The notes beneath the pieces were generated by a model, which had not been told where the DNA came from, did no database searches, and saw only the letters and a program-made list of their open reading frames with translations. The translations under genes and the position numbers were made by a program. Of a DNA stretch of 45,095 nt, positions 6,001-20,353 are shown in pieces; the first letter of the stretch is position 1; every line of letters starts with the position of its first letter. This stretch comes from Bacteroidales bacterium (GTDB taxonomy: Bacteria > Bacteroidota > Bacteroidia > Bacteroidales > WCHB1-69). The stretch covers positions 1-45,095 of the forward strand of contig JAEEQE010000023.1 in assembly GCA_016285145.1 (NCBI GenBank), in the 5' to 3' direction.

Positions 6001-9000
6001 GGGATAGCCTGAAGACGGTGAACAACTGCGACAGCGTTTATAAGCTGACCTTGACGGTGAACCCGACATTCTATTATGAGGAGACAGCCACGACGTGCGA
6101 CAATGTGCCGTATGTTTGGGAAGGCCATGCCAATGTGACGATTCCGACGGCGGCAGGCACGTACGTGATTTGGGACAGCCTGAAGACGGTGAACACCTGC
6201 GACAGCGTTTACAAACTGACGCTGACGGTGAACCCGACCTTCTATTATGAGGCTGCTGCTTCAACGTGCGACAATGAGCCGTATGTTTGGGAAGGCCATG
6301 CTCGCGTGACAATCCCGACAACTGCGGGCACGTATGAGATTTGGGACAGCCTGAAGACGGTGAACACCTGCGACAGCGTTTACAAACTGACCTTGACGGT
6401 GAACCCGACGTTCTACTTTGAAGAGGCTGCCACGACATGTGACAACGTACCGTACGTTTGGGAAGGCCATGCCAACGTGACGATTCCGACGGCGGCGGGC
6501 ACCTACGTGATTTGGGACAGCCTGAAGACGGTGAACACCTGCGACAGCGTTTACAAACTGACCTTGACGGTGAACCCGAGCTATTATGATGTGATGAAAG
6601 CCGAGACGTGCGACAACGTGCCGTACGTTTGGGAAGGCCACGCCCGCGTGACGATCCCGACGACCGCTGGCTCGCACATTGTGTGGGACAGCCTGAAGAC
6701 TCAAGCCGGTTGTGACAGCGTTTTCCAGTTGTACTTGACGGTGAATCCGGCATACTACTACGAAAATGTTGGCGAGACGTGTGCCAACGAACCTTACGTA
6801 TGGGCAGGCCACGCCAATGTGACAATCCCGACGACGGCGGGCACGCACATCGTGTGGGATAGCCTGAAGACGGAGAACTACTGCGACAGCGTTTACAAGC
6901 TGACGCTGACGGTGCATCCGACCTATTATGATGAGACGACAGCCGAGACCTGTGACAACGAGCCGTATGCCTGGATTGGTCACGCCAATGTGACGATCCC
7001 GACGACCGCCGGCACGTATGAAATTTGGGACAGCCTGAAGACGGTGAACCATTGCGACAGTGTGTTCAGACTGACGCTGACGGTGTTCCCGACATACTCG
7101 TATGATGATACGGTGTATCTGTGCGAATACGAGCTCCCGTACCCGTGGCACGGCGCTGACCGCACCACAAGCGGTATCTATTATGACAGAAAACTGACCG
7201 CCAACGGCTGCGACAGCGTGTATAAACTTACGTTGGTCGTGTATCCAAGATTCTACAATGAAACATCTGTGACGACGTGCGACAACGAGCCGTACGTGTG
7301 GGAAGGTCACCCGAATGTGACGATCCCGACAACCGCTGGCACGTATGTGATTTGGGACAGCCTGAAGACGGTGAACAACTGCGACAGCGTTTACAAACTG
7401 ACGCTGACGGTGAATCCGAGCTATTATGATGTGATGAAAGCCGAGACGTGCGACAACGTGCCGTACGTATGGGAAGGCCACGCCCGCGTGGCGATCCCGA
7501 CGACCGCCGGCACGCACATCCTGTGGGACAGCCTGAAGACCGCTGCCGGCTGTGACAGCGTGTTCCAGTTGTACTTGACGGTGAATCCGGCCTACTACTA
7601 CGAGGAAGCTGCCACGACGTGTGCCAACGAGCCGTATGTATGGGCAGGCCACGCTAATGTGACAATCCCGACGACGGCGGGCACGCACATCGTGTGGGAT
7701 AGCCTGAAGACGGAGAACTACTGCGACAGCGTTTACAAGCTGACGCTGACGGTGCACCCGACGTTCTTCGTTGAGCAGATGGTCAACACGTGCGACAATG
7801 TGCCGTACGTTTGGAACGGTCACCCGAATGTGACGATTCCGACGGCTGCCGGCACGTACGTGATCTGGGACAGCCTGAAGACGGTGAACAACTGCGACAG
7901 CGTGTTCAAGTTGAACTTGACGGTGAACCCGACCTTCTATCATGAGGAGACGGTGACCCTGTGCGAATACGAGCTTCCGTACCCGTGGCACGGCGAGAAC
8001 CGTGTTGTGGCAGGCGACTACTACGACAGACAGCAGACGGTGAACGGTTGCGACAGCGTGTACAAACTTACGTTGGTTGTGTATCCGAGATTCTACAATG
8101 AAACAGCTGTGACGACGTGCGACAACGAGCCTTACGTCTGGGAAGGTCATGCCAATGTGACGATTCCGACGACGGCGGGCACGTACATCCTTTGGGACAG
8201 CCTGCAGACGGTGAACCACTGCGACAGCGTCTATAAGCTGACCTTGACGGTGAACCCGACCTACTACAATGAAACGGCTGCGACCACGTGCGCCAATGAG
8301 CCGTACGTATGGGCAGGTCATGCCAACGTGACCATCCCGACAACGGCGGGTACGCATGTTGTATGGGATAGTTTGACCACGTCTGCCGGTTGCGACAGCG
8401 TCTATAAGTTGACGCTGACGGTGACACCGACTTTCGTGACCAACATTATGGACACCATCTGTTTGGGCGATAGCTACCAGCTGTATGGCTTCGATACCTT
8501 GCCGCAGACTTACGGAACGGTGTATGCACAACAGCAACTCCAGACGGTGAATGGTTGCGATAGTGTGGTGAACTTGACGCTGACAGTGAACCGTACCTAC
8601 CTGTTCGTGACGGATGACTACACCTGCGCGAACACCCCGTACACTTGGCGCGGCCAAACCTACTCCGCATCCGGTACATACTACGACAACTTCACGACCG
8701 TGAATGGCTGCGATAGCGTCTATGTGCTTAACCTCACCGTCAACCCGACGTATGAAGTGGAAGTGGAGGATAGTATCATTGTCTATCAAAACTATACCGG
8801 TTATGGCATGGATGTCACCCCGACCGAGGTGGGCGACCAGCATTATCCGATCCATCTCTATACGGAGGACGGCTGCGACAGCATCATTAACCTGACCCTC
8901 CATGTGCTTCTGAACATTGGTGTGGAACACTATGATCAGGCCGACATCTCCGTTTATCCGAATCCTACCAGCAACATCGTGAACATCAAGGGTGAGAACC

Positions 9001-9173
9001 TGAAGCGGGTCTATGTCTATGATGGTCGCGGACGCCTGCTGCGGATAGAAGAGGCCGACAGCGATGTCTTTACCTCCGTCCAGATGGGCCAGTACGCCAC
9101 TGGATACTATGTACTTAGAATACAATTGACCGATGGTCAATATGTAAATAGAAAAATTATGGTAAGGCCATAA
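1..9173 (+). CDS. Giant repeat-containing surface protein with T9SS C-terminal sorting domain (5' end missing)
   Basis: The frame is open from base 3, so the gene starts upstream of the window; the GTG at 36 is internal. More than 3,000 codons are visible. The N-terminal part (to about residue 600, and again about 760-990) consists of Ig-like modules of roughly 80-90 residues with WYA/WYD and STTYYV...TGCES signatures, like the Ig-like modules of large Bacteroidota adhesins. The rest is mainly short modules, each ending in a GCDSVYKLTLTVNPTY-type motif; I count about 38 CDS motifs. Two cysteines per module suggest one disulfide each. The last 80 or so residues (from HYDQADISVYPNPTSN to NRKIMVRP) match the Por secretion tail, which directs export by T9SS and cell-surface attachment. 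Adhesion or a surface-layer role is inference; no catalytic domain is visible. Confidence 0.93.
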   Translation, partial: GTNSLPSNRVQVDATTTYYAANVNTGTGCRSTVVPMTVTIKPVPANPTVNGTYNYCLASNATTNVLLSATPAPNANYCQWFDANKRPTYQQDYTLRNVSSSTTYYVASYLDGCYSDTVEVKIEINTKPGQPTADNIMLCAAGEVTLTGTPGANGDEVRWYVNNSRIEPSATGAVVYNATGNTTLTATTYNTQTGCESDGKSVALTIHPVVAAPTATTPVYACGGSATLSATPASGATLKWYDANHTEMAGFDGQVSGLTENTTYYVSSMQDGCESGTTSVTVIPSVIPSALQISGDASLCQGESAVLTVQPADGMTVRWYASETATTALSEQNTYTVNTPAVGSYTYYVDQYNATTGCVSPRTSFTFVVNANPDAPVLSDTTNCGTMQMTLTATPASGCIVKWYSDAQGNSELANTNVTVRSSTTYYAANVNEQTGCRSTISSMNITIYSFPHVPVIAPVGTICYGDSVTLTAQVDASTIRCQWRNRNTYYEGTTITTPALTTTTAFHAKAFNEHCSTGEISVILTVNPRPQAPSVTPTAVCEGENMVLTVNPGSDMEAHWYANAQATEVLATTSNLTLPNLNAGDSTFYVSFAYTQTGCESGRTAVQTTVYPSYPNVHIYETACDVYNWAGLSYPNSGLFERTFHTSHGCDSIVTLHLTINRSKQTTIDTVVCDRFVWNGETFTNSGVLTHVYEAANGCDSTVTVNLTVKKSTQATDRLYVCANAYPVEYHGSSIDRAGTYTIVIPNSVGCDSVITLTVVTNPQPTMASVTDASRCAAGEVTLRAQGGTNGNQLNWYETGATQPFHHGNSMTTTVSATTTYYVSYYNTNTGCESERMPVTATVNENPAMPTVSNQVRCGAGTVTFAATVGQNANTCQWFLTRNSAVVQATSLEYTANVTNASTSYFVESYNTETGCKSERAEVTAVVRPVPAVPVLTPMTNCGPVSFVVPAPAEGYYTWHNSSIINDRTVQNIGTGYQMPTIDASTTVQVGHAVDYNDIICESATSELSFTIYPVYSPRVLRDTICQDAQYVGYGIAETFNTPGSFERVVNTHSSNGCDSLVTLVLEVKDKKYNQISEEVCDQYVWNNQTYTTSGTYTQQFTAANGCDSIVTLTLVVNKSVANEFTIETCDSYTWNSQVYSASGNYVQHFNTVHGCDSMVTLHLTIHPSMKESFTEVACDSYTWNDETYTATGDYQQHFSTVHGCDSTVTLHLTVFHSSNVNYQDVVCAESRYQGYGFDTTIAVADVYYLVHHNTNVDGCDSTTTLQLTVNPVYRKNISTTICETASFNFNGKILNVAGTYVDTLSTVNGCDSIITLNLAVASEYRDTIHADICQYETYTLNGFQENTTGFYVQNLIASNNCDSVVVLDLTVHPLDTTYLTDEVCQNVAYNNYGFVNVATDVAGTFTHERHVATRFGCDSTVFLTLTVKPVYEFAFVDTICLGETYQQDGFDTLPTTVGTHTVVRRLQTTQGCDSVRVLTLTVNPTYNHDVYASICQGDVYTYNNVEYTTQNVYPVMLTTVNGCDSLVNLHLTVNPTYYYEATATTCDNAPYAWEGHANVTIPTTAGSYILWDSLRTVNGCDSVYKLTLTVNPTYLIPMEDAVCSYELPYMWRGRAFEAAGVYYDSLKTAVGCDSVYQLTLTVNPAYYSEMTAVTCDNDPYEWDGHANVTIPTAAGQYVIWDSLKTAAGCDSVFKLALTVNPTYQEDLYEEICQGDVVSFNNNVYDESGDYVARLRSQNGCDSIVTLHLIVHPTYVRSMQIEACQGALPYVFNDTVQFTENGQRTVHLYTTHGCDSIINVTFNVIPFERHTDEVTICDNALPFPYQDSLFTEAGVYDVVQTFADGCNVITTLTLNVNPTYLHYDTVYACANKLPYIYNGNVALNEAGNDTLHYTTVNTCDSTVIVTLVVEPNPTTSDIQYVCPTELPLQYGDSLFATEGSYLVVFARENQCDSMVNLTIELNPTYFFESVETTCDNVPYVWEGHANITIPTAAGTYILWDSLKTVNNCDSVYKLTLTVNPTFYYEETATTCDNVPYVWEGHANVTIPTAAGTYVIWDSLKTVNTCDSVYKLTLTVNPTFYYEAAASTCDNEPYVWEGHARVTIPTTAGTYEIWDSLKTVNTCDSVYKLTLTVNPTFYFEEAATTCDNVPYVWEGHANVTIPTAAGTYVIWDSLKTVNTCDSVYKLTLTVNPSYYDVMKAETCDNVPYVWEGHARVTIPTTAGSHIVWDSLKTQAGCDSVFQLYLTVNPAYYYENVGETCANEPYVWAGHANVTIPTTAGTHIVWDSLKTENYCDSVYKLTLTVHPTYYDETTAETCDNEPYAWIGHANVTIPTTAGTYEIWDSLKTVNHCDSVFRLTLTVFPTYSYDDTVYLCEYELPYPWHGADRTTSGIYYDRKLTANGCDSVYKLTLVVYPRFYNETSVTTCDNEPYVWEGHPNVTIPTTAGTYVIWDSLKTVNNCDSVYKLTLTVNPSYYDVMKAETCDNVPYVWEGHARVAIPTTAGTHILWDSLKTAAGCDSVFQLYLTVNPAYYYEEAATTCANEPYVWAGHANVTIPTTAGTHIVWDSLKTENYCDSVYKLTLTVHPTFFVEQMVNTCDNVPYVWNGHPNVTIPTAAGTYVIWDSLKTVNNCDSVFKLNLTVNPTFYHEETVTLCEYELPYPWHGENRVVAGDYYDRQQTVNGCDSVYKLTLVVYPRFYNETAVTTCDNEPYVWEGHANVTIPTTAGTYILWDSLQTVNHCDSVYKLTLTVNPTYYNETAATTCANEPYVWAGHANVTIPTTAGTHVVWDSLTTSAGCDSVYKLTLTVTPTFVTNIMDTICLGDSYQLYGFDTLPQTYGTVYAQQQLQTVNGCDSVVNLTLTVNRTYLFVTDDYTCANTPYTWRGQTYSASGTYYDNFTTVNGCDSVYVLNLTVNPTYEVEVEDSIIVYQNYTGYGMDVTPTEVGDQHYPIHLYTEDGCDSIINLTLHVLLNIGVEHYDQADISVYPNPTSNIVNIKGENLKRVYVYDGRGRLLRIEEADSDVFTSVQMGQYATGYYVLRIQLTDGQYVNRKIMVRP
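4630..8430 (+). repeat. 171-bp (57-residue) tandem coding repeats
   Basis: About fifteen modules carry the signature TCDN-PYVWEGHANVTIPT followed by WDSLKT and CDSVYKLTLTV. Successive TC(D/A)N codons fall at 6093, 6264, 6435, 6606, 6777 and 6948, exactly 171 bp apart. Shorter variants without the GHANVTIPT segment are interspersed, for example the CEYELPYPWHG type at 7119 and about 7959. Confidence 0.93.
6541..8220 (+). repeat. 840-bp super-repeat, two tandem copies
   Basis: Positions 6541-7380 and 7381-8220 align in perfect register at an offset of 840 bp. Each copy contains the same ordered set of five modules, four of 57 residues and one of 52 (4 x 171 + 156 = 840). Module-specific spellings recur in order: DVMKAET, TCANEPYVWAG, SLKTENY, LCEYELPYPWHG, VVYPRFYNET. 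Bases 6816-6916 are identical to 7656-7756 over 101 bp, which points to a recent segmental duplication. Confidence 0.9.
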
Positions 9174-10069: not shown

Positions 10070-10133
10070 TAACACGGTGGCCCCTCAAAGGGCCATAGAT
10101 TTATGGAACAATATTCGATTTATAGAGAGAACG

Positions 10134-10583
10134 ATGACAAAAGCTGAAAAATACAAATCCTTGCTGCCGCAGATAGCGGCCTTGGTGGAAGGCGAAACGG
10201 ATATGATTGCCAAGATGGCAAATGTGGCAGCCGCCCTGCATGAGACGTTCGGATTCTGGTGGACCGGATTCTATCGTGTGGTGGGGGAGGAACTGGTGCT
10301 CGGACCTTTCCAGGGACCCCTGGCCTGCATCCGTATCCCGTTCGGTCGTGGTGTGTGCGGCACTGCATGGCAACGGGGCGAGACCGTTGTTGTGCCGGAT
10401 GTGCATGCCTTTGCCGGGCATATTGCCTGCTCGTCAGCGTCGAACAGCGAAATTGTGGTGCCTCTCTTCCGCAACGGCGCTGTCATTGCTGTACTCGACA
10501 TCGACAGTACCGATTACGCCACCTTCGACGAAACCGACCGCTGCTATTTGGAACAGATGATGTCTTTTATGACAAAAGAGTAA
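10134..10583 (+). CDS. msrC: Free methionine-(R)-sulfoxide reductase (GAF domain)
   Basis: A 149-residue single GAF-domain protein of the fRMsr/YebR family, which reduces free L-methionine-(R)-sulfoxide in the cytoplasm using a cysteine relay. The three diagnostic cysteines are present at residues 65, 75 and 99. Their spacing (9 and 23 residues between) matches E. coli YebR Cys84, Cys94 and Cys118. The GPF-GP, RIPFGRGVCGTAW and VLDIDS motifs are also typical. The frame is open upstream to a GTG at 10077, but the ATG at 10134 gives the family length and is preceded by GAGAGAAC. An oxidative-stress repair role fits its place just before the stress-signalling genes, although that link is only positional. 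Confidence 0.92.
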   Translation: MTKAEKYKSLLPQIAALVEGETDMIAKMANVAAALHETFGFWWTGFYRVVGEELVLGPFQGPLACIRIPFGRGVCGTAWQRGETVVVPDVHAFAGHIACSSASNSEIVVPLFRNGAVIAVLDIDSTDYATFDETDRCYLEQMMSFMTKE

Positions 10584-10667: not shown

Positions 10668-12710
10668 ATGCCCTCCAGAAAATCATACGCGGGATTGTGG
10701 ATCATAGTGGTTGCGGCGGTGGTGTTGGAAGCCATCTCCTGCATCCAGTATTTTTACAGCCGTGCGGGTATTCGTGCCGAAGCGGAGCAACGGGCACAAA
10801 GTGAATTGCGCCGTGCCGAGTTGGAAATCAATGTGGTGATGGTGGAAATGGAAGCCGCGGCAAAGATGTTGGCCGCTGTGGCGGAACAGCATCTTGACAA
10901 CCCTGATTCCGTAGCCGCGGCCACCCGGATGCTGTTGCAGACCATCCGGAATGTGAGTAGTGCCGGCATAGCCTGCCAAGCATACCTCTTCCCGGAGAAA
11001 GGACGTTGGTACGAGATGTGTAGCAGCCGCCAGCCGGATGGCACGATCTATACGCGCCAGATAGGAGGGGCAGACCATGATTATTTCCAGACAGAGTGGT
11101 ATCACAATGGCCTTGATTTCCAAGGCTGCAAATGGAGTGAGCCCTATATGGACGAATATGGAGCCCGCACGATGGTGGTCAGTTGTACGTATCCTGTCCG
11201 CAACGGGCAGGGAGAAGTGGTGGCGGTGGCCTGTGTGGACGTGTCGCTGAATTATCTGCAACGCATGTCGGAGTATTTGCAAATCTACAAAGACAGCTAT
11301 TATTCCATCCGCTCAGGCAATGGTTTGGTGATTGTCTCCGGTGAGGATACGGTTCCAGGACGCGACTATCAGATTTACAATGAAGATATTGACAAAACGG
11401 GATGGAAGATATCGATCATCATTCCGGAAGATGTCATCTTCGCCGATCTTAATCGTGTGGGTATGATTGTCGGATTGCTGATGCTGCTTGGTCTGGCATT
11501 GCTCATTTTTATTGTATGGTACATCGGTCGCAGCAATAAGCGTCTCATTCTCTCCATAGAAAAGAACCAGCGCATGGAGAACGAACTTCATGTCGCCCGA
11601 ACGATACAGATGGCGATGCTGCCGAAAGTGTTCCCTCCGTTTGGCGACCGTCCGGATCTCAATCTCTTTGGCATCGTCAATCCAGCCAAGGAGGTGGGTG
11701 GCGACTTGTATGATTTCTTTGTGCGGCAAGAAAAACTGTTCTTCTGTGTCGGCGATGTGAGTGGCAAGGGAGTGCCTGCCGCACTGCTGATGGTGATGAC
11801 CCATTCGATGTTCCGCAGCGTCACGGCGCACGAGGAGAACGCGGCCGCCATCGTCAGCGAGATGAACAAGGCCATCGCCAGACAGAACATGGAGAACATG
11901 TTCCTCACGCTTTTCCTTGGTGTGCTTGACTGCAAGACAGGCAGACTTGACTACTGCAATGCCGGACATAATGCTCCCGTACTGAGATCGGAAGGCCAAT
12001 GGAAGAAAGTTGATGTCGTGGCGAATTTCCCGTTGGGCATTGTGCCCGACTTTAAATACGAGGCGCAGACGACGCAGATGGCGTACAACGACCTGCTGTT
12101 CCTTTACACCGACGGCCTGACCGAAGCGGAAAACAGCAGCCATGAACTGTTCAGAGAACATCGGATGCTGCAAAGCCTGTCTTCCATGGCCTATGACCGT
12201 CCGCGCGAAATCATCGAAAACATGCAGTCGAGTGTGGAGGCCTTCGTGGACGGAGCGCAGCAGAGCGATGACCTGACCATGCTCGCTATCCGGTATCAGA
12301 CACCGGCTATTGTCATGCGCAACGACATACAGCAGATTTCCACACTTGCCGAATGGGTTGACGGGCTGGGGGTCCCTGACGAACTGAACATGCCGGTGAA
12401 CCTTGCATTGGAAGAGGTGGTGAGCAATGTCATGCTGTATGCCTACCCGAACAAGAACGGGCAGGTGATCGTGGAATTTGCCAAGCATGTCGCCATGGAC
12501 GCGAAATCCTCCACGCTCATCTTTACAATCACTGACAGCGGCGTTCCCTTTGATCCGACGCAACAGAAGGAAGCCAACATCACCTTGTCGGCGGAGGAAC
12601 GGGAAATAGGTGGTTTAGGCATCCATCTTGTACGCCAGCTTATGGACGAAATCCATTATCGCCGCGAAGAGGGCAAAAATATCTTGACGCTGATAAAAAA
12701 GATCAAGTGA
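10668..12710 (+). CDS. Membrane sensor with SpoIIE-type PP2C phosphatase and C-terminal HATPase (anti-sigma kinase-like) domain
   Basis: 680 residues. A first membrane segment (about residues 7-29), an extracytoplasmic Cache-like sensor region (about 30-260), a second membrane segment (about 265-290), then a helical linker. A SpoIIE/RsbU PP2C phosphatase follows at about 310-545, with GGDLYD, GDVSGKGVPAALL, CNAGHN, DGLTEA and SDDLTML. The C-terminus (about 550-680) is an RsbW/SpoIIAB-like GHKL domain with N-box ALEEVVSNVMLYAYP and DSGVPFDP and GGLGIHLV boxes. In known partner-switching systems such a kinase phosphorylates a STAS antagonist and the PP2C domain removes the phosphate. Here both sit on one sensor protein, and a STAS gene lies 3 kb downstream. 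The signal sensed is unknown. Confidence 0.9.
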   Translation: MPSRKSYAGLWIIVVAAVVLEAISCIQYFYSRAGIRAEAEQRAQSELRRAELEINVVMVEMEAAAKMLAAVAEQHLDNPDSVAAATRMLLQTIRNVSSAGIACQAYLFPEKGRWYEMCSSRQPDGTIYTRQIGGADHDYFQTEWYHNGLDFQGCKWSEPYMDEYGARTMVVSCTYPVRNGQGEVVAVACVDVSLNYLQRMSEYLQIYKDSYYSIRSGNGLVIVSGEDTVPGRDYQIYNEDIDKTGWKISIIIPEDVIFADLNRVGMIVGLLMLLGLALLIFIVWYIGRSNKRLILSIEKNQRMENELHVARTIQMAMLPKVFPPFGDRPDLNLFGIVNPAKEVGGDLYDFFVRQEKLFFCVGDVSGKGVPAALLMVMTHSMFRSVTAHEENAAAIVSEMNKAIARQNMENMFLTLFLGVLDCKTGRLDYCNAGHNAPVLRSEGQWKKVDVVANFPLGIVPDFKYEAQTTQMAYNDLLFLYTDGLTEAENSSHELFREHRMLQSLSSMAYDRPREIIENMQSSVEAFVDGAQQSDDLTMLAIRYQTPAIVMRNDIQQISTLAEWVDGLGVPDELNMPVNLALEEVVSNVMLYAYPNKNGQVIVEFAKHVAMDAKSSTLIFTITDSGVPFDPTQQKEANITLSAEEREIGGLGIHLVRQLMDEIHYRREEGKNILTLIKKIK

Positions 12711-12745
12711 AAAAACCGATAAACAATTTTTTTCAAATACGGCAA

Positions 12746-15718
12746 ATGGGAAAGAATAACAATATGACATCTATGCAACAGCAGAAGGCCGCTGCAAAAT
12801 TCGCGCAGGACTGGGCGTGCAAAGGTTATGAGAAAGGCGACACACAACGGTTCTGGTTGGAATTATTGCAAAAAGTGTTCGAGGTGGGAGATCCGTACAA
12901 ATTCATAGAATTTGAAGACCAGGTGATGGTGGATAGTACGAACTTCATGGACGGTTATATTCCCAGCACAAAAGTACTTATCGAGCAAAAGAGCATAGAG
13001 AAGGAACTCGGCAAGCCTACCAAACAAAGTGATGGTTCATGGCTCAATCCTTTCCAACAGGCGAAGAAATATGTTGTCGGCTTACCCTTGTCAAGACATC
13101 CCCGATGGATTGTGACGTGCAATTTCGCTGAGTTTTGGGTTTATGATATGGAACAACCGAATGGAGAACCTCAGAAAATCGCGCTCAAGGACCTTGAAAA
13201 AGAGTATTACCGTCTCTCGTTCCTTGTGGATAGTGGCAATGCACACCTCAAACGTGAAATAGAAGTCAGTGTAAAGGCAGGAACGTTAGTTGGACAAATA
13301 TATGACCTGCTGTTGAAACAATACATTGATGCAGATGAGCCAGAGACACTGCGCAGTCTCAATGTGCTGTGTGTACGTTTAGTGTTCTGTCTCTATGCCG
13401 AAGATGCCATGCTTTTTGGCAGAAAGACCGCTTTCCATGATTACCTTGCCCAATATAAGGCAAAGGACATGCGTCGTGCGCTTATCGACCTTTTTGATGT
13501 GCTTGACACGCCTGAAGCCATGCGTGATCCCTATATGGAAACCGCTCTCAAAGCTTTCCCGTATGTTAATGGCGGATTGTTCAGTCACGATGAGCGATTA
13601 CAGATTCCGCAGTTTACAGACGAACTGAAGGATTTGATTCTCGCAAAAGCTTCCTGTGATTTCGATTGGAGTGAAATATCGCCTACTATCTTCGGTTCGG
13701 TGTTTGAAAGCACGTTGAACCCCGATACCCGAAGGAAGGGTGGAATGCACTACACCTCTGTTGAAAATATCCACAAGGTTATCGATCCGCTCTTTTTCAA
13801 TGCTCTAAAAGAGGAGTTTGAGGCCATTAAGAATATTGCCCAAGAGAAACAGCGGCTGTTAAGGTTTGGTGCTTTTCAGGATAAACTTGCAAATCTTACT
13901 TTTTTGGACCCCGCCTGCGGTAGTGGTAATTTCCTGACGGAAACATATTTAAGTCTTCGGCGGTTGGAAAACAAGGTGATTCTGGAGCTGACGAAAGGAC
14001 AGTCTCGGCTTGGGTTTGAAGAGACGAATCCAATCAAAGTGAACATTCACCAGTTTTACGGCATTGAAATTAATGATTTTGCTGTTTCTGTAGCGACCAC
14101 AGCATTATGGATAGCCGAGAATCAAATGCTAAAGGAAACGGAAAGTATTGTGGATTTCAACATTGACATGCTGCCCTTAAAAGCGTATCACAACATAAAA
14201 GAAGGCAATGCGTTACGCCTCTCATGGACGGAATGGTCGGTTGAAAAGGAGAGGAATGTTGTGATTGCAGGGAAAGCAAATCTATATTCATTAGAGGATA
14301 TTCCTGTGGGAATAGCAAGAGAACCTGTTGCCCGCTATGGTGAAGTTGATTTATACAGTGATGAGATTAAAATCAGCCCCATAAAACAACAGGAGGAAAC
14401 TTGTCACGTTGACTTTGATTACATCATGGGTAATCCGCCATTCGTGGGTGCACGTCTCATGTCAGACGAACAGAAAGATGACCTGATTAGTGTTTTCGGC
14501 AAGAAATGGAAGAATATTGGCAATATGGATTACGTTTGCGGCTGGTACCTCAAGACCGCTCGACTCATGCAAGCCAATACAGCCCTTCGGGCGGCACTCG
14601 TTTCTACTAACTCTATAACCCAAGGCGAACAAGTGGCTATCCTCTGGCGGCCAATTTTTGAGCAATGCGGGGTTCATATTGACTTTGCCTACCGAACGTT
14701 TCGTTGGAACAGTGAATCAAGCATGAAAGCACACGTGCATTGTGTTATTATAGGGTTTAGTTGTGCGGATGTTAAGGACAAGACTATCTATTTTAATGAA
14801 TCTCAAATCTCAAATGCTAAAAACATTAACCCATATCTGATTGATGCGCCTGATGTTTTTATTGAGAGCCGAAAGAAACCAATCTGCGATGTGAAAAAGA
14901 TGGTATTTGGCAGTATGCCCAACGATGGAGGGAATCTTATTCTCTCGGAAGAGACAGCGGCTGACATCATCGAAAAGGAGCCATTGGCGAAAAAGTTTGT
15001 CAAGTTGTTTATCGGTGCAGAGGAGTTCATTAACAACAAAAAGCGCTACTGCTTGTGGCTCAAAAATTCAGAACCTGATGAACTCCGAAAGATGAGACTT
15101 GTGGCTGAAAGGGTGGAAAAGGTAAGGAAAATCCGCTCAGAAAGTAAACGTAAGGCTACGAAAATATTAGCTGATACGCCTTGGTTGTTTGGCGAAATAA
15201 GGCAACCTGAGAATGGAAAATACCTTTTGGTACCAAGTACATCATTAGAAAAACGAAGGTATATTCCGATGGGTTTCTTTAGTTGTGATGTGATTTCAAG
15301 CAATGCAAATTTATTAATCCCCGATGCTGGTTTGTACGAGTTTGGCGTTATGAACAGCAATGTACACAATGCATGGATGCGTGTTGTCTGTGGAAGACTT
15401 AAAAGTGACTATCGCTATTCTGCAAACATTGTCTATAACAATTTTCCGTGGTGTAGCCCAACAGATAAGCAAAGAAAAAAAATCGAACAAACGGCCCAAT
15501 CCATTCTTGATGCAAGAAATAACCATCATCAATCAAGCCTTGCTGATTTGTATGACGAGACTTTTATGCCTGCCGACCTTCGCAAGGCACATCAGGAAAA
15601 TGACCGTGCTGTGATGGAAGCCTATGGTTTCGACAAAAAAATCATTTCCCAAGATGACGAAATGCTGATTGTTGAGGAATTATTCAAACTTTATCAGGAA
15701 TTTACCAGTAATATATAA
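12746..15718 (+). CDS. MmeI-like single-chain restriction-modification enzyme (type IIL/IIG)
   Basis: 990 residues in one chain. The N-terminus carries a PD-(D/E)XK-like nuclease signature (Asp69, Glu80, Lys82 in VLIEQK) closely matching the MmeI D70/E80/K82 site. A helical spacer follows, then a gamma-class N6-adenine methyltransferase with motif I DPACGSGNF at about 388 and motif IV NPPF at 563. The C-terminal third looks like the target-recognition part. Such enzymes methylate one strand of their site and cut at a distance. ATG 12746 was chosen; GTG 12707 overlaps the previous stop and ATG 12764 (after GGGAAAG) is also possible. The gene is visibly more A+T-rich than its neighbours and separates the phosphatase/kinase gene from the STAS gene, which suggests acquisition by transfer. 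Motifs look intact, so it is probably active. Confidence 0.88.
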   Translation: MGKNNNMTSMQQQKAAAKFAQDWACKGYEKGDTQRFWLELLQKVFEVGDPYKFIEFEDQVMVDSTNFMDGYIPSTKVLIEQKSIEKELGKPTKQSDGSWLNPFQQAKKYVVGLPLSRHPRWIVTCNFAEFWVYDMEQPNGEPQKIALKDLEKEYYRLSFLVDSGNAHLKREIEVSVKAGTLVGQIYDLLLKQYIDADEPETLRSLNVLCVRLVFCLYAEDAMLFGRKTAFHDYLAQYKAKDMRRALIDLFDVLDTPEAMRDPYMETALKAFPYVNGGLFSHDERLQIPQFTDELKDLILAKASCDFDWSEISPTIFGSVFESTLNPDTRRKGGMHYTSVENIHKVIDPLFFNALKEEFEAIKNIAQEKQRLLRFGAFQDKLANLTFLDPACGSGNFLTETYLSLRRLENKVILELTKGQSRLGFEETNPIKVNIHQFYGIEINDFAVSVATTALWIAENQMLKETESIVDFNIDMLPLKAYHNIKEGNALRLSWTEWSVEKERNVVIAGKANLYSLEDIPVGIAREPVARYGEVDLYSDEIKISPIKQQEETCHVDFDYIMGNPPFVGARLMSDEQKDDLISVFGKKWKNIGNMDYVCGWYLKTARLMQANTALRAALVSTNSITQGEQVAILWRPIFEQCGVHIDFAYRTFRWNSESSMKAHVHCVIIGFSCADVKDKTIYFNESQISNAKNINPYLIDAPDVFIESRKKPICDVKKMVFGSMPNDGGNLILSEETAADIIEKEPLAKKFVKLFIGAEEFINNKKRYCLWLKNSEPDELRKMRLVAERVEKVRKIRSESKRKATKILADTPWLFGEIRQPENGKYLLVPSTSLEKRRYIPMGFFSCDVISSNANLLIPDAGLYEFGVMNSNVHNAWMRVVCGRLKSDYRYSANIVYNNFPWCSPTDKQRKKIEQTAQSILDARNNHHQSSLADLYDETFMPADLRKAHQENDRAVMEAYGFDKKIISQDDEMLIVEELFKLYQEFTSNI

Positions 15719-15730
15719 TTAACGAAATAC

Positions 15731-15736
15731 AAGGAG
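15731..15736 (+). promoter_or_regulatory. Shine-Dalgarno-like AAGGAG before the STAS gene
   Basis: AAGGAG lies 3 nt before the ATG at 15740. Strong SD sequences are uncommon in Bacteroidota, and this spacing is tighter than usual, so its use is uncertain. Confidence 0.4.
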
Positions 15737-15739
15737 CTT

Positions 15740-16042
15740 ATGAAAACCGAAATCGTAACCGACGGCAACCGGCTTGTCGCCAAATTCTACGGCAGGCTTG
15801 ATACTGCCGCCGCTGTGCAAACCGCCGAGGAGGTGAAACCTCTGCTGGAAGCCGCAAACAAGGAGATTGTCCTGGACTGCAGCGAGCTCGAGTATATTTC
15901 CTCGTCGGGGCTGCGCATCTTCCTTGGTATCCGCAAGGAGGCCGCCAACCACGGCAGCAATGTCGTTGTACGCAACATCAACGCCGACATCCGCCAAGTC
16001 TTCATGATGACCGGCTTCATCAGTTTTTTTGAAATACAATAA
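15740..16042 (+). CDS. STAS-domain anti-sigma-factor antagonist-like protein
   Basis: A 100-residue single STAS domain of the SpoIIAA/RsbV type. The phosphorylation loop reads YISSSGLRIFL. By alignment to SpoIIAA (DSSGL), Ser55 is the likely phosphoacceptor, with Ser in place of the usual preceding Asp. The expected role is to bind and sequester the HATPase kinase when dephosphorylated. The likely partner is the SpoIIE-HATPase fusion encoded upstream, whose kinase and phosphatase domains could both act on this serine; that pairing is inferred from family knowledge and position. It starts 21 bp after the restriction-modification gene and ends 2 bp before the alarmone synthetase gene, so it is almost certainly co-transcribed with the latter. 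Confidence 0.9.
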   Translation: MKTEIVTDGNRLVAKFYGRLDTAAAVQTAEEVKPLLEAANKEIVLDCSELEYISSSGLRIFLGIRKEAANHGSNVVVRNINADIRQVFMMTGFISFFEIQ

Positions 16043-16044
16043 AT

Positions 16045-17127
16045 ATGGATCCGCATACTGAAATTATCTTGGCGGAATACGACCGTCAGTTGCCGTTTTT
16101 CCGGCGATTGGAACGCATCGTGCAAATCACGCTGCAGGATATCCTGGATAGCAACGGTCTGGCGGTGACGGCTGTCAGCACGCGTGTGAAGACACGTGAA
16201 AGCCTTGCCGGCAAGTTGGAACTCAAAGGGGGTAAGTACCATTCCATCAGAGATATCACGGACATCCTTGGGGCGCGTATTGTAACCCTTTATACGGATG
16301 ATGTGGACCGTATAGCCGCCATGGCGGAGCAGCTCTTCGATATCGATTGGGAAAATTCCGTTGATAAACGCCGCCTGCACAACACGGACAGCTTCGGCTA
16401 CAATTCGTTGCACTATATCTGTCGGCTGCCCAAGACGTTGGTTGACGAGCCAGACTGGCCGCAGTTGAACGAGGTGCGTTTTGAGCTGCAGTTACGGACC
16501 ACCCTCCAGCACGCGTGGGCATCCATCAACCACGATATCGGCTATAAGACGGGTGTGGAGATACCGCATATCTATATCCGTCAGATAAACCGTTTGGCCG
16601 GTATGCTGGAGATGGCGGACGACGAGTTCAGCCGCATCCGCACGGAGATCAACAACTACCGCCGGCGCGTGCAGATGCTTGTTCAGAATGGGGAACTCGA
16701 CGATGTGCAGTTGGATGGCGACACCTTCCGAAGCTATTTGGAAGCGCAGCCGTTCGGAATGCTCAACCACCGTATTGCCGCCATCAACCAGGCGGAGATA
16801 CAAGAGGTGCCGTTGAATGGATATCTGCGTGTGTTTGTGGCACTTGGCTGCAAGACACTCGGCGATGTGGACCGCATGCGTGCGCAATATACAGAGCATG
16901 CTTACACACTCGCACGTCATCAGCTCGGCAACACCGATCTCGACATCCTTTCCTCATCCGTCGGCATACAGAATATCTGTATCGTCTGTATCCTCGCCAA
17001 TGGCGGTGGCAAGATAGGCCTCACAAGACTCTTCAACGCCCTTAACGGCGAAAACCCGCAAAATGAATTGTTAGCGGAAATGACTTATAACCAGGCATTG
17101 AATTTATCTTTTATGCAAAATAAATAA
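16045..17127 (+). CDS. RelA/SpoT-domain alarmone synthetase-like protein
   Basis: 360 residues. A RelA/SpoT nucleotidyltransferase domain spans about residues 40-175, with RVKTRESLAGKL, HSIRDITDILGARIV, YNSLHY and the catalytic Glu147 in ELQLRT, followed by AWASINHDIGYK. These keep the residues that transfer pyrophosphate from ATP to GTP or GDP. No HD hydrolase, TGS or ACT domain is present, so it is a synthetase-only protein, longer than a typical small alarmone synthetase. The C-terminal half (about 190-360) is helical then alpha/beta and I do not recognise it. It begins 2 bp after the STAS gene and shares one base with the next gene. It could make (p)ppGpp or act as a toxSAS-type enzyme on nucleotides or tRNA; sequence alone does not decide. 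Confidence 0.85.
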   Translation: MDPHTEIILAEYDRQLPFFRRLERIVQITLQDILDSNGLAVTAVSTRVKTRESLAGKLELKGGKYHSIRDITDILGARIVTLYTDDVDRIAAMAEQLFDIDWENSVDKRRLHNTDSFGYNSLHYICRLPKTLVDEPDWPQLNEVRFELQLRTTLQHAWASINHDIGYKTGVEIPHIYIRQINRLAGMLEMADDEFSRIRTEINNYRRRVQMLVQNGELDDVQLDGDTFRSYLEAQPFGMLNHRIAAINQAEIQEVPLNGYLRVFVALGCKTLGDVDRMRAQYTEHAYTLARHQLGNTDLDILSSSVGIQNICIVCILANGGGKIGLTRLFNALNGENPQNELLAEMTYNQALNLSFMQNK

Positions 17128-17966
17128 TGGAAGCCATAAAAATTGACCTCAACGATTACATGCGCACGGGCGAAGGAGCCAATGGCGCCAGTTACGATCA
17201 CAAGACGGACAAGAGCATCATGCTCAAGTTGTATTTCCATAATTTCGAGGCCGCCCAGGTGGAACTGGAAATGGCGCAGAAGGTGTATGCGATGGGAGTG
17301 CCCACACCCGAGCCTGGCGATCTGGTGACCGACGGCAAGGCGATGGGCATCCGTTTCCGCCGTATCGAAGGCAAGAAATCCTATTCGCGGGCCTGCGGCG
17401 ACAATCCCGAGCGCACAGAAGAGTACGCCCGGGAGTTTGCGCAATTGTGCAGGAAACTCCACGCCATCCATGTGGACACCATTCAGTTCGAGAATGTCAA
17501 GGATCGTCTGTACAAGATGCTGGCAGACAATCCCTTCTTCTCCGACGAACAAAAACAGAAGATACACGATTTCATCGCGGACGCACCCGATGCCGACACC
17601 GCCATCCACGGCGACCTGCAGTTCAGCAACGGTATTTTTGTGGAAAAAGAGGGCGTGCGCACGCCTTATTTCATCGATCTCGGCGATTTCTGCTATGGCT
17701 ATCCGATGTTCGACATCGGCATGGTTTATCTCTGTTGCTGCCTCAATAACGAGTCATGGACACGGGATGTGTTTCACATGTCCAATGCCACGGCCAGACG
17801 GTTTTGGAAAGCCTTCGCACCAGAATATTTCGGTCCTGATGCAAACCTCGACGAGATTGAGAAAACCGTCCGCATCTATGCCGGCTTGAAGACGCTTATC
17901 ATTGAGCGCGACACCCATCGCCCTATGCCTGAGTTCCGAGCCATGCTGGAGGGAACGGTGTATTAG
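17127..17966 (+). CDS. Aminoglycoside phosphotransferase-fold kinase (TIGR02172-like)
   Basis: 279 residues with the APH/choline-kinase fold. The catalytic loop HGDLQFSN (His-x-Asp...Asn) lies near residue 158, and the metal-binding FIDLGDFCYG follows. The N-terminal lobe has an invariant-type lysine (MLKLYF). It resembles the TIGR02172 family of small-molecule or protein kinases with no established substrate, so I name no substrate. The ATG overlaps the alarmone synthetase stop (TAATG), indicating translational coupling. The shared operon suggests that the kinase acts with the alarmone and STAS components, but this is inference from arrangement. A repeat-filled 160-bp gap separates it from the HD hydrolase gene. 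Confidence 0.82.
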   Translation: MEAIKIDLNDYMRTGEGANGASYDHKTDKSIMLKLYFHNFEAAQVELEMAQKVYAMGVPTPEPGDLVTDGKAMGIRFRRIEGKKSYSRACGDNPERTEEYAREFAQLCRKLHAIHVDTIQFENVKDRLYKMLADNPFFSDEQKQKIHDFIADAPDADTAIHGDLQFSNGIFVEKEGVRTPYFIDLGDFCYGYPMFDIGMVYLCCCLNNESWTRDVFHMSNATARRFWKAFAPEYFGPDANLDEIEKTVRIYAGLKTLIIERDTHRPMPEFRAMLEGTVY

Positions 17967-17973
17967 AGATAAA

Positions 17974-18100
17974 GTTTAGAGTTTAGAGTTTAGAGAAAGC
18001 CCATAACACCTTAACTCCTTAGTTTCTTAACTTCTTAACTGATGTCAACACTCTAAGATCAAACCGCCAACGGCCAACAGCAAACGGCTAACGGCCAAAC
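17974..18100. repeat. Intergenic patch of 7- and 8-bp degenerate tandem repeats
   Basis: The 160-bp gap holds three short arrays in a row: GTTTAGA x3 at 17974-17994; an 8-bp unit CTTAACTN x4 (one degenerate copy) at 18010-18041; and a 7-bp unit GCCAACG-like x5 at 18066-18100. No ORF or clear promoter was found between them. Confidence 0.85.
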
Positions 18101-18126
18101 TATTTAACGGAGATAATTATAAAAAA

Positions 18127-18699
18127 ATGTCAAATAAATTCATGGATACAAGCCTGCTTGATCGGGCGATTGTTTTTGCGGTTAAGGCGCACCACAACAG
18201 TGAGCGGCGCGGCAAGGGCTTTCCGTATATCGTGCATCCGATGGAAGCCGTTGAGATAGTGGCTACCATCACGCCCGATCAGTGCCTTCTGGCTGCCGCG
18301 GCGCTGCATGACACCATTGAGGATACAGACGTGACGGTGGAGCAGATTCGTACGGAGTTCGGCGACCGTGTTGCGGACCTCGTGCAGGCCGAAAGCGACC
18401 AGTTTGTAGAAGGAGTGAGCGAAGCGGAGAGTTGGCATGATCGCAAACAGGCGGCAATCGACCGGCTGGCGGCTGCCCCGCACGACGCGAAGATCGTGGC
18501 GTTGGGCGACAAGCTGAGCAATATGCGGGCCATTTGGCGCGATTATCAGATTAAAGGCGATGAATTGTGGAAGATTTTTCATGTGACGGACAAAGCCTCG
18601 CATGAATGGCATTACCGCGGCCTGGCTGCATCGCTGAGAGAATTGGACGACACCTTTGCTTATAAAGAATATGTGCGGTTAATAGATGAGGTTTTTTAA
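18127..18699 (+). CDS. HD-domain (p)ppGpp hydrolase-like protein (small alarmone hydrolase)
   Basis: 190 residues forming a stand-alone HD domain of the SpoT/MESH1 type. Metal-binding and catalytic motifs are in place: HPMEAVEIV, ALHDTIEDT (the HD pair with EDT) and GDKLSNMRAI. Such enzymes remove the 3'-pyrophosphate from (p)ppGpp; related ones serve as antitoxins to toxSAS proteins. The N-terminal stretch DRAIVFAVKAHHNS is also typical of the family. It lies about 1 kb downstream of the synthetase-only gene, so synthesis and hydrolysis are encoded by separate proteins in one neighbourhood. It ends 10 bp before the start chosen for the symporter. Confidence 0.87.
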   Translation: MSNKFMDTSLLDRAIVFAVKAHHNSERRGKGFPYIVHPMEAVEIVATITPDQCLLAAAALHDTIEDTDVTVEQIRTEFGDRVADLVQAESDQFVEGVSEAESWHDRKQAAIDRLAAAPHDAKIVALGDKLSNMRAIWRDYQIKGDELWKIFHVTDKASHEWHYRGLAASLRELDDTFAYKEYVRLIDEVF

Positions 18700-18709
18700 A
18701 AATGAAAAT

Positions 18710-20353
18710 ATGAATCCTGCTTTTCACACTATTGACATTATAATTTTTGCAGCCTACCTTCTGTTGATTGTGGGGTTGGGCATCTGGATTTCCCATCGGA
18801 AGAAGAATAAAGAGAAAACCGCTGAGGATTATTTCCTGGCGGGCAAGTCGCTGCCGTGGTGGACGATAGGCGCGTCGTTGATTGCTGCCAACATCTCGGC
18901 GGAGCAGTTCATCGGCATGTCGGGTTCGGGCTTCGCGGGTGGTTTTGCCGTGGCCTCCTACGAGTTCATGGCCGCCCTCACCCTCATCATCGTGGCTAAA
19001 TTCTTCATGCCCGTATTTGTGAAACAGGGCATCTACACCATTCCCCAATTTGTGGAACAACGCTATTCCCGGAATCTCAAGACCATCCTCGCGGTGTTCT
19101 GGTTGGGGCTTTTCATCTTCGTGAACCTCACTTCTGTACTCTTTCTCGGTGCCAAGGCCATCGACACCATCATTGGGGTGGGGGATGGCACGCTGATTAT
19201 GCCCGCTATTATCGGATTGGGCCTCATCGCAGCCCTGTATTCCATCACCGGAGGTCTCTCTTCCGTGGCCTGGACCGACATCTTGCAGGTTTTTCTGCTT
19301 GTGCTGGGCGGTTTCATTACTACTGTGGTTGCTCTGCAAGTGATAAGTCCCGACGGGACTGTGACACAAGGTGTGCGCCATCTTACGGATGTGGCGGGAG
19401 ACCGTATGCATCTTATTCTGCCCAAAGACAACCCCGAATACCACAATCTGCCCGGCATTGCGATGCTGATTGGCGGGCTATGGGTGGCGAATCTGTATTA
19501 TTGGGGCTTCAATCAGTATATCATCCAACGTGCTTTTGCGGCCAAGTCGCTGCCCGAGGCGCAGAAAGGTCTGGCGTTCGCGGCGTTTCTCAAGCTGCTT
19601 ATTCCCTTCATCGTGGTCATCCCCGGCATTGTCGCCTATGTAATGTATACAGAAGGACATTTCGGCGCGGTGGAAGCTCTTACCAAGGCTAACGGCGCAC
19701 TTAACAACGACAACGCGTACCCGTGGCTCATCAGCACCTTTGTCCCTACTGGACTTAAGGGATTGGTCCTTGCTGCGTTAGCGGCGGCCATTGTCTCTTC
19801 GCTGGCCTCCATGCTCAACTCGGCATCCACCATTTACACTATGGATATCTACAAACCCTATATTGCCCCGACGGTGAAGGAGAAAACAGGAAAGGATGTG
19901 AGTTTGGTGCTGGTGGGACAAGTCTCTGCCGGCCTTTTCCTCATTATAGCCTGTCTCATAGCCCCGCTGCTCGGCAGTGTGGGCCAGATGTTCCAATACA
20001 TACAGGAGTACACCGGTTTGGTGAGTCCGGGCATCCTCGCTTTGTTTTTGTTGGGTTTGTTTTGGAAGAAAACCACCAACAAGGGCGCTATCACAGGTGT
20101 GGTGCTCTCGATTCCCATTGCGTTGGCACTCAAATTCTTACCTTTGGATATGCCGTTTATAGACCAGATGTTCTACACCTGTCTGCTCACCATGGCCATC
20201 ATTGTGATGGTGAGCTTGTGTACATGCGAGAAGGAGGACGATGCGCGTGCCATTTCCTTGAGCGCAGACATGTTCCAGACCAAGCGTGACTTCCACATTG
20301 CGGCATATGCGATATGTGTGTTGTTAGTGGTAATCTACGCAGTGTTTTGGTAG
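18710..20353 (+). CDS. Sodium/solute symporter (SSS family, SGLT-like)
   Basis: 547 residues and about 14 hydrophobic segments. It matches the sodium:solute symporter family: the YFLAGKSLPWWTIGASLIAANISAEQFIGMSGSGFAGG region after the first segment, GGLSSVAWTDILQ, and WGFNQYIIQRAFAAKS, where vSGLT has its sugar-gating tyrosine region. The C-terminal half carries SSLASMLNSASTIYTMDIYK, the Na+-site segment in SGLTs. The likely substrate is a sugar or similar solute, but neighbours give no catabolic clue. ATG 18710 was chosen over 18686, which would overlap the preceding gene by 14 bp and add only a charged octapeptide. It is probably read through from the hydrolase gene. Confidence 0.9.
   Translation: MNPAFHTIDIIIFAAYLLLIVGLGIWISHRKKNKEKTAEDYFLAGKSLPWWTIGASLIAANISAEQFIGMSGSGFAGGFAVASYEFMAALTLIIVAKFFMPVFVKQGIYTIPQFVEQRYSRNLKTILAVFWLGLFIFVNLTSVLFLGAKAIDTIIGVGDGTLIMPAIIGLGLIAALYSITGGLSSVAWTDILQVFLLVLGGFITTVVALQVISPDGTVTQGVRHLTDVAGDRMHLILPKDNPEYHNLPGIAMLIGGLWVANLYYWGFNQYIIQRAFAAKSLPEAQKGLAFAAFLKLLIPFIVVIPGIVAYVMYTEGHFGAVEALTKANGALNNDNAYPWLISTFVPTGLKGLVLAALAAAIVSSLASMLNSASTIYTMDIYKPYIAPTVKEKTGKDVSLVLVGQVSAGLFLIIACLIAPLLGSVGQMFQYIQEYTGLVSPGILALFLLGLFWKKTTNKGAITGVVLSIPIALALKFLPLDMPFIDQMFYTCLLTMAIIVMVSLCTCEKEDDARAISLSADMFQTKRDFHIAAYAICVLLVVIYAVFW

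Follow-up and report, generated by a model that had tools for sequence, protein, structure and literature searches.

Conserved linkage of partner-switch genes and genes of small alarmone enzymes in uncultured Bacteroidales

Closest described systems

The control of diguanylate cyclases by STAS proteins and partner switches is established for BgrV/BgrR, HsbA/HsbD and SiaC/SiaD, according to the available portion of PMC8457831. Here, we describe a locus in which a partner switch of the RsbU/RsbW/RsbV type is coupled to a set of alarmone enzymes. Sensors of this type ordinarily act on transcription factors, and partner switching and alarmone metabolism are as a rule distinct stress circuits. Its five genes encode a membrane sensor, a STAS protein, a RelA/SpoT homologue (RSH), an APH-fold kinase and a stand-alone HD hydrolase. 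The locus lies in a stretch of 45,095 nucleotides, referred to as the window, which spans positions 1 to 45,095 of contig JAEEQE010000023.1 (assembly GCA_016285145.1) and is contig 31 of its host genome G000. The host is an uncultured Bacteroidales bacterium (2.73 Mb, 94.8% complete). The nearest relatives of the window are metagenome-assembled genomes labelled Bacteroidales or Paludibacteraceae, mostly derived from ruminants; Bacteroidales are abundant in gut and rumen.

The coupling of the partner switch with the alarmone set is real and conserved. Its logic is that of the cyclase systems under STAS control, to which it does not itself belong. In the SiaABCD type, SiaA is a PP2C phosphatase, SiaC is a DUF1987 protein and the enzyme is a GGDEF diguanylate cyclase, whereas the window contains a STAS and a RelA_SpoT domain. 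The likeness lies in the logic: in SiaABCD, HsbA/HsbD and BgrV/BgrR the phosphorylation state of a small protein, STAS or DUF1987, governs a nucleotide second-messenger enzyme (PMC8457831, same portion). Unlike in these three systems, the enzyme of the window is of the RelA/SpoT type, a hydrolase and a kinase are included in the operon, and kinase and phosphatase of the switch form one protein in the window subtype.

Such a single-protein arrangement is also found in SypE/SypA of Vibrio fischeri, where kinase and PP2C are likewise joined and STAS acts as the downstream component. SypE, however, possesses a central receiver domain that the window sensor lacks, and the target of SypA is described as unknown; a PDC membrane sensor and alarmone genes do not figure in the description, as far as the available part of PMC10120452 goes. 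The best solved match to the PP2C region of the window sensor and to the start of its kinase region is Rv1364c (3ke6, E 2e-22). This protein of Mycobacterium tuberculosis joins a PP2C domain to an anti-sigma kinase domain and has a sigma target; the window differs by its PDC sensor and its separate STAS gene. Compared with RsbU/RsbV/RsbW, the PP2C aspartates, the HATPase N and G boxes and the STAS serine are all present in the window, while no cognate alternative sigma factor was found in a search that left out extracytoplasmic function (ECF) factors.

The alarmone enzymes have relatives of their own. In Treponema denticola, Tde-SAS (DsRel family) and Tde-SAH also combine a small alarmone synthetase (SAS) domain bearing a C-terminal helical extension with a stand-alone HD hydrolase. 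The extension of Tde-SAS is described as a TPR domain acting as a brake (both from the accessible text of PMC10434055), whereas the corresponding window domain matched no TPR model. The terms STAS, SpoIIE and operon do not occur in the main text of that paper. The solved chains of SAS1/YjbM and SAS2/YwaC, about 180-200 residues long, align with the N-terminal ~200 residues of the window RSH only; its C-terminal domain of ~150 residues is without counterpart in them. By their domain content, the window RSH and HD proteins would qualify as a SAS and as a small alarmone hydrolase (SAH), respectively.

Among the matches listed from the open literature (titles and beginnings of abstracts; subscription papers are mostly outside it), no report of an alarmone synthetase under the control of a partner switch was found.

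A conserved five-gene module

All five genes are located on the forward strand of the window: the sensor (10668..12710), STAS (15740..16042), RSH (16045..17127), the APH-fold kinase (17127..17966) and the HD hydrolase (18127..18699). An earlier note on this DNA had already placed these genes at these positions on one strand, and both Pfam and the coordinates of the open reading frames agree with it. It was also right about the spacing of 2 nt between STAS and RSH and the overlap of 1 nt between RSH and APH; between APH and HD there is a gap of 160 nt. Its inventory was sound for the module itself but overlooked a 1003-codon MmeI-type restriction-modification gene (12707-15718), treated below.

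The conservation of the module was followed in 80 loci, the best 80 of 134 relatives from one scan with the window RSH protein. As the search patterns were taken from the window's own protein, these loci favour close relatives, and some may derive from the same genomes as those in the genome survey below. The complete set of five genes, in the same order, is found in 64 of the 80 loci, and STAS stands beside RSH in 78 of the 80. Among loci that can be judged, the rest being cut by contig ends, STAS is present in 78/79, the PP2C-HATPase protein in 75/78, APH in 73/78 and HD in 71/77. The STAS-RSH junction is the tightest (median 2 nt; 20 nt or less in 63 of 78), compared with medians of 11 to 24 nt for the other junctions. 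The five loci without APH (L028, L037, L044, L070 and L076) retain STAS and RSH, and in L034 and L096 STAS still accompanies RSH even though the locus is without PP2C. Where the HD gene is missing, L042 has another HD-domain gene; none was found in five other judgeable loci, for which a long Rel encoded elsewhere could substitute. Upstream of the sensor there is no conservation, the largest gene cluster being shared by 4 of 48 loci, and the sensor gene is therefore the left edge of the module.

A second set comprises 16 further loci, read over 13-19 kb, whose RSH is ~48-60% identical to that of the window. PP2C, HATPase and STAS belong to the RSH cluster in 14 of these 16 loci, HD in all 16 and APH in eight. 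Of the 14 loci with PP2C and HATPase, 12 encode the two separately. The gene order varies: HATPase-PP2C-STAS-RSH followed by fused HD-APH in L119-L121, PP2C-HATPase-STAS-RSH with the same kind of fusion in L122, and RSH-HD-APH-PP2C/HATPase-STAS in L125 and L126. In L127 (one genome) it is RSH and HD that are fused. L129-L133 contain an extra gene between STAS and RSH, which is YegS/DAGK-like in L129 and L130 and an open reading frame of similar size in L131-L133. Two more divergent genomes outside the 16, G003 and G007, also show STAS and HD.

The RSH tree was built from 42 proteins (24 of the 80 window-type rows, the 16 divergent rows and two outgroups). The HD-APH fusions of four genomes (L119-L122) fall into two separate clades, while L123 and L124, which have no STAS, are nested inside a STAS-bearing clade with support 99/98. 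This suggests that the fusion of HD and APH was repeated and that the loss of the partner switch in L123/L124 was secondary.

The neighbourhood survey proposed in the earlier note has thus been run, and the homologues are neighbours in other genomes as well. Its idea of an integrated module is borne out by the order kept in 64 of 80 loci, by 14 of 16 divergent loci in which the genes are rearranged but together, by the enzyme fusions and by the search for region-3 sigma factors, which found no second one in the 94.8% complete genome. We consider it very probable that the five genes form one functional module.

The switch proteins

Residue conservation was read from alignments comprising, with the window included, 67 sensor, 78 STAS, 80 RSH, 74 APH and 71 HD rows; open reading frames without ATG or without a stop on the contig were dropped. 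The alignments behind models and searches are chosen subsets.

The sensor is a single polypeptide with a PDC/dCache-like N-terminus, a SpoIIE-type PP2C domain (~355-543) and an RsbW-like HATPase kinase domain (~559-677). Pfam recognizes an MCP-like PDC domain, SpoIIE/PP2C (E 1e-51) and HATPase_c_2 (E 6e-22), with no receiver domain among the matches. The nearest solved sequences are Rv1364c (3ke6), SpoIIE, RsbW (6m36) and the PDC domains of chemoreceptors. In the PP2C domain D346, D363, D482, D534 and D535 are invariant in all 67 rows; we take these, like the HD residues given below, to be metal-binding. The same holds for E582, E583, N587, D623, G625, G648, G649 and G651 of the HATPase domain, presumably its N and G boxes. 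Amino-acid sensing by the PDC domain was considered because genes of amino-acid-type ABC transporters flank several relatives: they adjoin RSH-HD in L123 and L130 (after HD in L130), and the open reading frames of L124 have the same sizes as those of L123. The chemoreceptor motif for amino-acid binding appears incomplete by eye, and no ligand is claimed.

The STAS protein is of the anti-sigma-antagonist type (Pfam E 7e-16; TIGR00377 above cut-off). The stretch S54-S55-S56-G57 is invariant in 78 of 78 rows, and S55 is also kept in 14 divergent STAS proteins and in a paralogue on contig 26. Ser55 is the predicted phospho-acceptor, and a cycle of phosphorylation and dephosphorylation may be expected at this residue.

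The alarmone enzymes and the APH-fold kinase

The RSH protein is a small synthetase without HD domain (RelA_SpoT, E 3e-18), and its active-site residues are intact and conserved in the family. Residues 7-205 match the fold of SAS1/YjbM and SAS2/YwaC (RelQ, RelP), and ppGpp is the likely product. Residues 205-360 (window 16657-17124) form an additional helical domain, predicted at pLDDT 89.7 and conserved in the family. It found no convincing match among solved structures and no Pfam family above cut-off, TPR models included.

The HD protein is a putative alarmone hydrolase of the SAH type (HD_4, E 3e-19), and its closest solved chains by sequence are the stand-alone HD proteins 7qoc, 7qoe and 4yf1. 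H61, D62 and D128 are invariant in 71 of 71 rows and H37 in 70, with one gap.

The small-molecule kinase has an APH fold (Pfam APH, E 4e-15) and belongs to the TIGR02172 family (236.3 bits, cut-off 228.2). H161, D163 and N168 are invariant in 74/74 rows, D184 and D196 in 73/74. Its substrate may well belong to the alarmone nucleotide pathway. No credible solved relative was found by sequence, the only matches being recA fusions in which no stretch was significant, and the term 'TIGR02172' was found in no paper of the open literature. In the 160-nt gap between this gene and HD, a short imperfect direct repeat occurs (two copies of 21 nt, 18055-18096).

Distribution and history

Three samples were surveyed: relatives, order and phylum. 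Among 60 related genomes RSH is present in 19, all within the window's genus (19 of 36, own included). The order sample of 393 genomes contains 13 that match at E 1e-20 or better, including nine with a nearly full-length match; the families concerned are f1, f41, f79, f81 and f101. Of the 395 genomes in the phylum sample, 10 match, and the window's genome alone does so over the full model. An origin from a mobile element was considered and rejected, as no viral-contig relative was found (28 pattern matches, none confirmed). Among plasmids, 50 records match, all below 60% identity and none covering 80% of the query; no STAS gene is listed in the two plasmid neighbourhoods that were read, whose gene tables are incomplete.

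The profile of the window-type STAS was searched in 43 genomes. The STAS proteins beside divergent RSH (L119-L122, L127-L134) score 79-93 bits, with the exceptions of G008 (129) and G029 (132). STAS proteins outside RSH clusters score higher: 103 bits for the contig-26 paralogue and up to 128 in G034 (C12), a genome without RSH. The matches above 130 bits are eight in number, all in RSH-bearing genomes. Plain joint inheritance of the switch genes and RSH does not account for this pattern. Joint descent of STAS and RSH across both module types was accordingly rejected, the scores being in disagreement (no STAS tree was built). The pattern hints that the switch was exchanged, or that it joined RSH more than once; the latter would argue for a functional tie.

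Proposed mechanism and its alternatives

In the proposed mechanism, the membrane protein would sense an extracellular signal via its PDC domain and would supply both the phosphatase and the kinase for STAS, their net activity setting the phosphorylation of Ser55. With kinase and phosphatase both tied to the membrane in one protein, STAS would be the mobile output, as in SypE/SypA. Unphosphorylated STAS would most likely bind the co-translated RSH and alter its activity, probably via the family-specific C-terminal domain. The HD hydrolase would reset the signal, and the APH-fold kinase would act in the same nucleotide pathway. Both the direct STAS-RSH contact and the direction of control are what we infer from the genes and their arrangement. 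The chances appear about even that the locus is a self-contained stress operon, in which the RsbU/RsbW/RsbV-type switch governs an alarmone output of its own and not a sigma factor; for a direct action of STAS on the alarmone enzymes, too, the balance is level. If this is true, the partner-switch logic of cyclic di-GMP enzymes extends to the stringent-response nucleotide, and an extracellular signal could determine the alarmone level without the ribosome-linked long Rel, for which HD and synthetase matches are found on contig 38 of G000.

Several observations weigh against such a wiring. In the window itself, the restriction-modification gene parts the sensor from STAS, so that the two are not adjacent and the operon is split in G000. 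L089 has RSH, APH and HD but neither STAS nor PP2C, and in L123 and L124 (family f101) RSH is without neighbouring STAS or other partner-switch genes. STAS and RSH are non-adjacent in L125 and L126, where STAS is beside the sensor, and in L129-L133. The STAS-less f101 proteins keep the C-terminal domain, which therefore need not be the site of STAS binding. The structure predictions cover individual chains and no complex. The STAS scores described above, lower beside divergent RSH than outside RSH clusters, point in the same direction.

Co-divergence was assessed in 57 rows with all parts (51 once near-copies were removed) by partial rank correlations with 300 permutations. The STAS distances track those of PP2C (partial 0.68, reached in 0/300 permutations), with a value of 0.14 for HATPase (reached in 18/300). 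Between STAS and RSH, co-divergence was sought and none was found: 0.00 for the N-terminal and -0.02 for the C-terminal part of RSH (51 rows). This counts against a direct co-evolving contact, although a frozen interface would look alike. The earlier note had suggested that the phosphorylation state of STAS may control either the synthetase or the kinase. The linkage within a module stands; the contact finds no support in the co-divergence values, in the STAS-less loci L089, L123 and L124 or in the non-adjacent arrangements.

Some of the same observations favour a serious rival explanation, which we regard as possible but less likely than not: the two halves are co-regulated and not wired, the switch acting on RpoD, an ECF system or another protein while the same stress calls for both. 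STAS co-diverges with PP2C and not with RSH, RSH-HD exists without partner-switch genes in L123/L124 and L089, and the module STAS proteins of the two RSH types are not mutually nearest by score. G000 contains three HATPase_c_2 and three STAS matches. A second PP2C-HATPase-STAS set is found on contig 26 (L135 5513-8025) by an ABC ATPase, a WYL protein and a type I restriction subunit, with no RSH adjoining, and hence STAS sets can function here without one. The third HATPase_c_2 precedes a gene resembling an iron-sulphur protein by eye; the third STAS is part of a frame of 573 aa.

The search for a sigma factor bears on both explanations. Only one Sigma70_r3 match was found genome-wide, on another contig than the window, in a scan that did not include ECF factors; it belongs to a 286-aa protein that is RpoD-like by eye. 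The statement of the earlier note that no sigma factor is nearby thus holds for region 3, ECF-type factors being outside the scan. A sigma-factor output was set aside as a candidate on this result, with the proviso that ECF factors were not scanned and that RpoD is a conceivable target. The chlamydial Rsb system targets the primary sigma factor (PMC4552016, in its available part), and RpoD therefore stays among the possible targets, which again speaks for mere co-regulation and against the alarmone output. What speaks for the wired operon is that no alternative region-3 sigma factor was found, that the gene set survives reshuffling, that STAS and RSH are nearly always close in the 80 loci, and that STAS accompanies RSH even in L034 and L096, where the locus has no PP2C. 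The invariance of Ser55 and of the catalytic residues given above also speaks for it, and the STAS-controlled cyclases and SypE/SypA provide precedents. With two RsbU/V/W-type sets and no alternative region-3 sigma factor found, the role of these sets in G000 calls for an explanation, and the operon offers a concrete answer.

A more far-reaching form of the wired operon would be a second alarmone circuit connected to the cell exterior, in which STAS switches synthetase and hydrolase oppositely and the HD-tethered kinase modifies the nucleotide, so that the system has its own second messenger and not plain ppGpp. We hold this to be improbable; if true, it would to our knowledge be the first partner switch with alarmone metabolism as its direct output.

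Also improbable, and slightly more so, is a toxin-antitoxin or defence system, with RSH as a toxSAS-like growth inhibitor, HD as its neutraliser and the partner switch as trigger. SAH enzymes do neutralise toxSAS products in the FaRel operon, according to the accessible part of PMC11782079. RSH and HD lie next to each other and are fused in one case, the presence of RSH is patchy (the 19 of 36 genomes of the genus), and PADLOC has a candidate model, PDC-S33, that fits the synthetase domain. Finally, it is very doubtful that STAS has the APH-fold kinase as its output and that the alarmone enzymes do no more than supply or respond to the product of this kinase: the APH-HD fusion in four genomes and the YegS/DAGK-like kinase gene in the clusters of L129 and L130 (similar-sized frames in the same place in L131-L133) would fit, but APH is missing from five of 78 judgeable loci that keep STAS and RSH and from the cluster in 8 of 16 divergent loci.

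The restriction-modification insertion and neighbouring genes

The gene between sensor and STAS (12707..15718, forward strand) encodes an MmeI-type (type IIG/IIL) restriction-modification enzyme and lies outside the conserved module. All five MmeI Pfam models (N-terminal, helical spacer, methyltransferase, TRD and C-terminal) are above their cut-offs, and PADLOC assigns REase_MTase_IIG with 1145 bits. Its GC content is 42.7% (44.7% at third codon positions), compared with 52-54% (62-71%) in the five module genes. Its start overlaps the sensor stop by 4 nt, the insertion being placed cleanly between two operon genes. In the close relative L022 the sequence is continuous over this site, matching the window to 12702 and again from 15698, and no MmeI match was found in the 80 related loci L021-L100. 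The gene is an insertion of foreign composition into a conserved operon.

Downstream of the module, the window has a sodium:solute symporter (18686..20353, forward strand; Pfam SSF) that overlaps the HD gene by 14 nt and lies outside the module; L022 is the only one of the 80 loci with a match to it. In 46 of 66 loci with a same-strand neighbour, this place is taken by a cluster of 267-aa proteins, which is Y_phosphatase3 in both members searched, L027 (12592-13395) and L064. A cytidylate-kinase-like cluster follows the last module gene in 7 loci. In L038 (12090-12636) the HD gene seems frame-broken, the frames of the other four genes being open. L026 (13433-15744) contains a second PP2C-HATPase and STAS pair downstream of the module, one open reading frame from HD.

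Elsewhere in G000, on contig 21 (L136 6141-9322), a PP2C protein is encoded by the side of iron-hydrogenase-domain and 2Fe-2S proteins, possibly a separate redox-linked phosphatase system. Upstream of the sensor, window positions 10077-10583 encode a small GAF-domain protein with matches in L021 and L022 alone among the 80 loci. Further upstream, an open reading frame of 3045 aa (36-9173) consists of many similar repeats and is probably a surface protein; its C-terminal tail resembles what we take to be a secretion-sorting domain.

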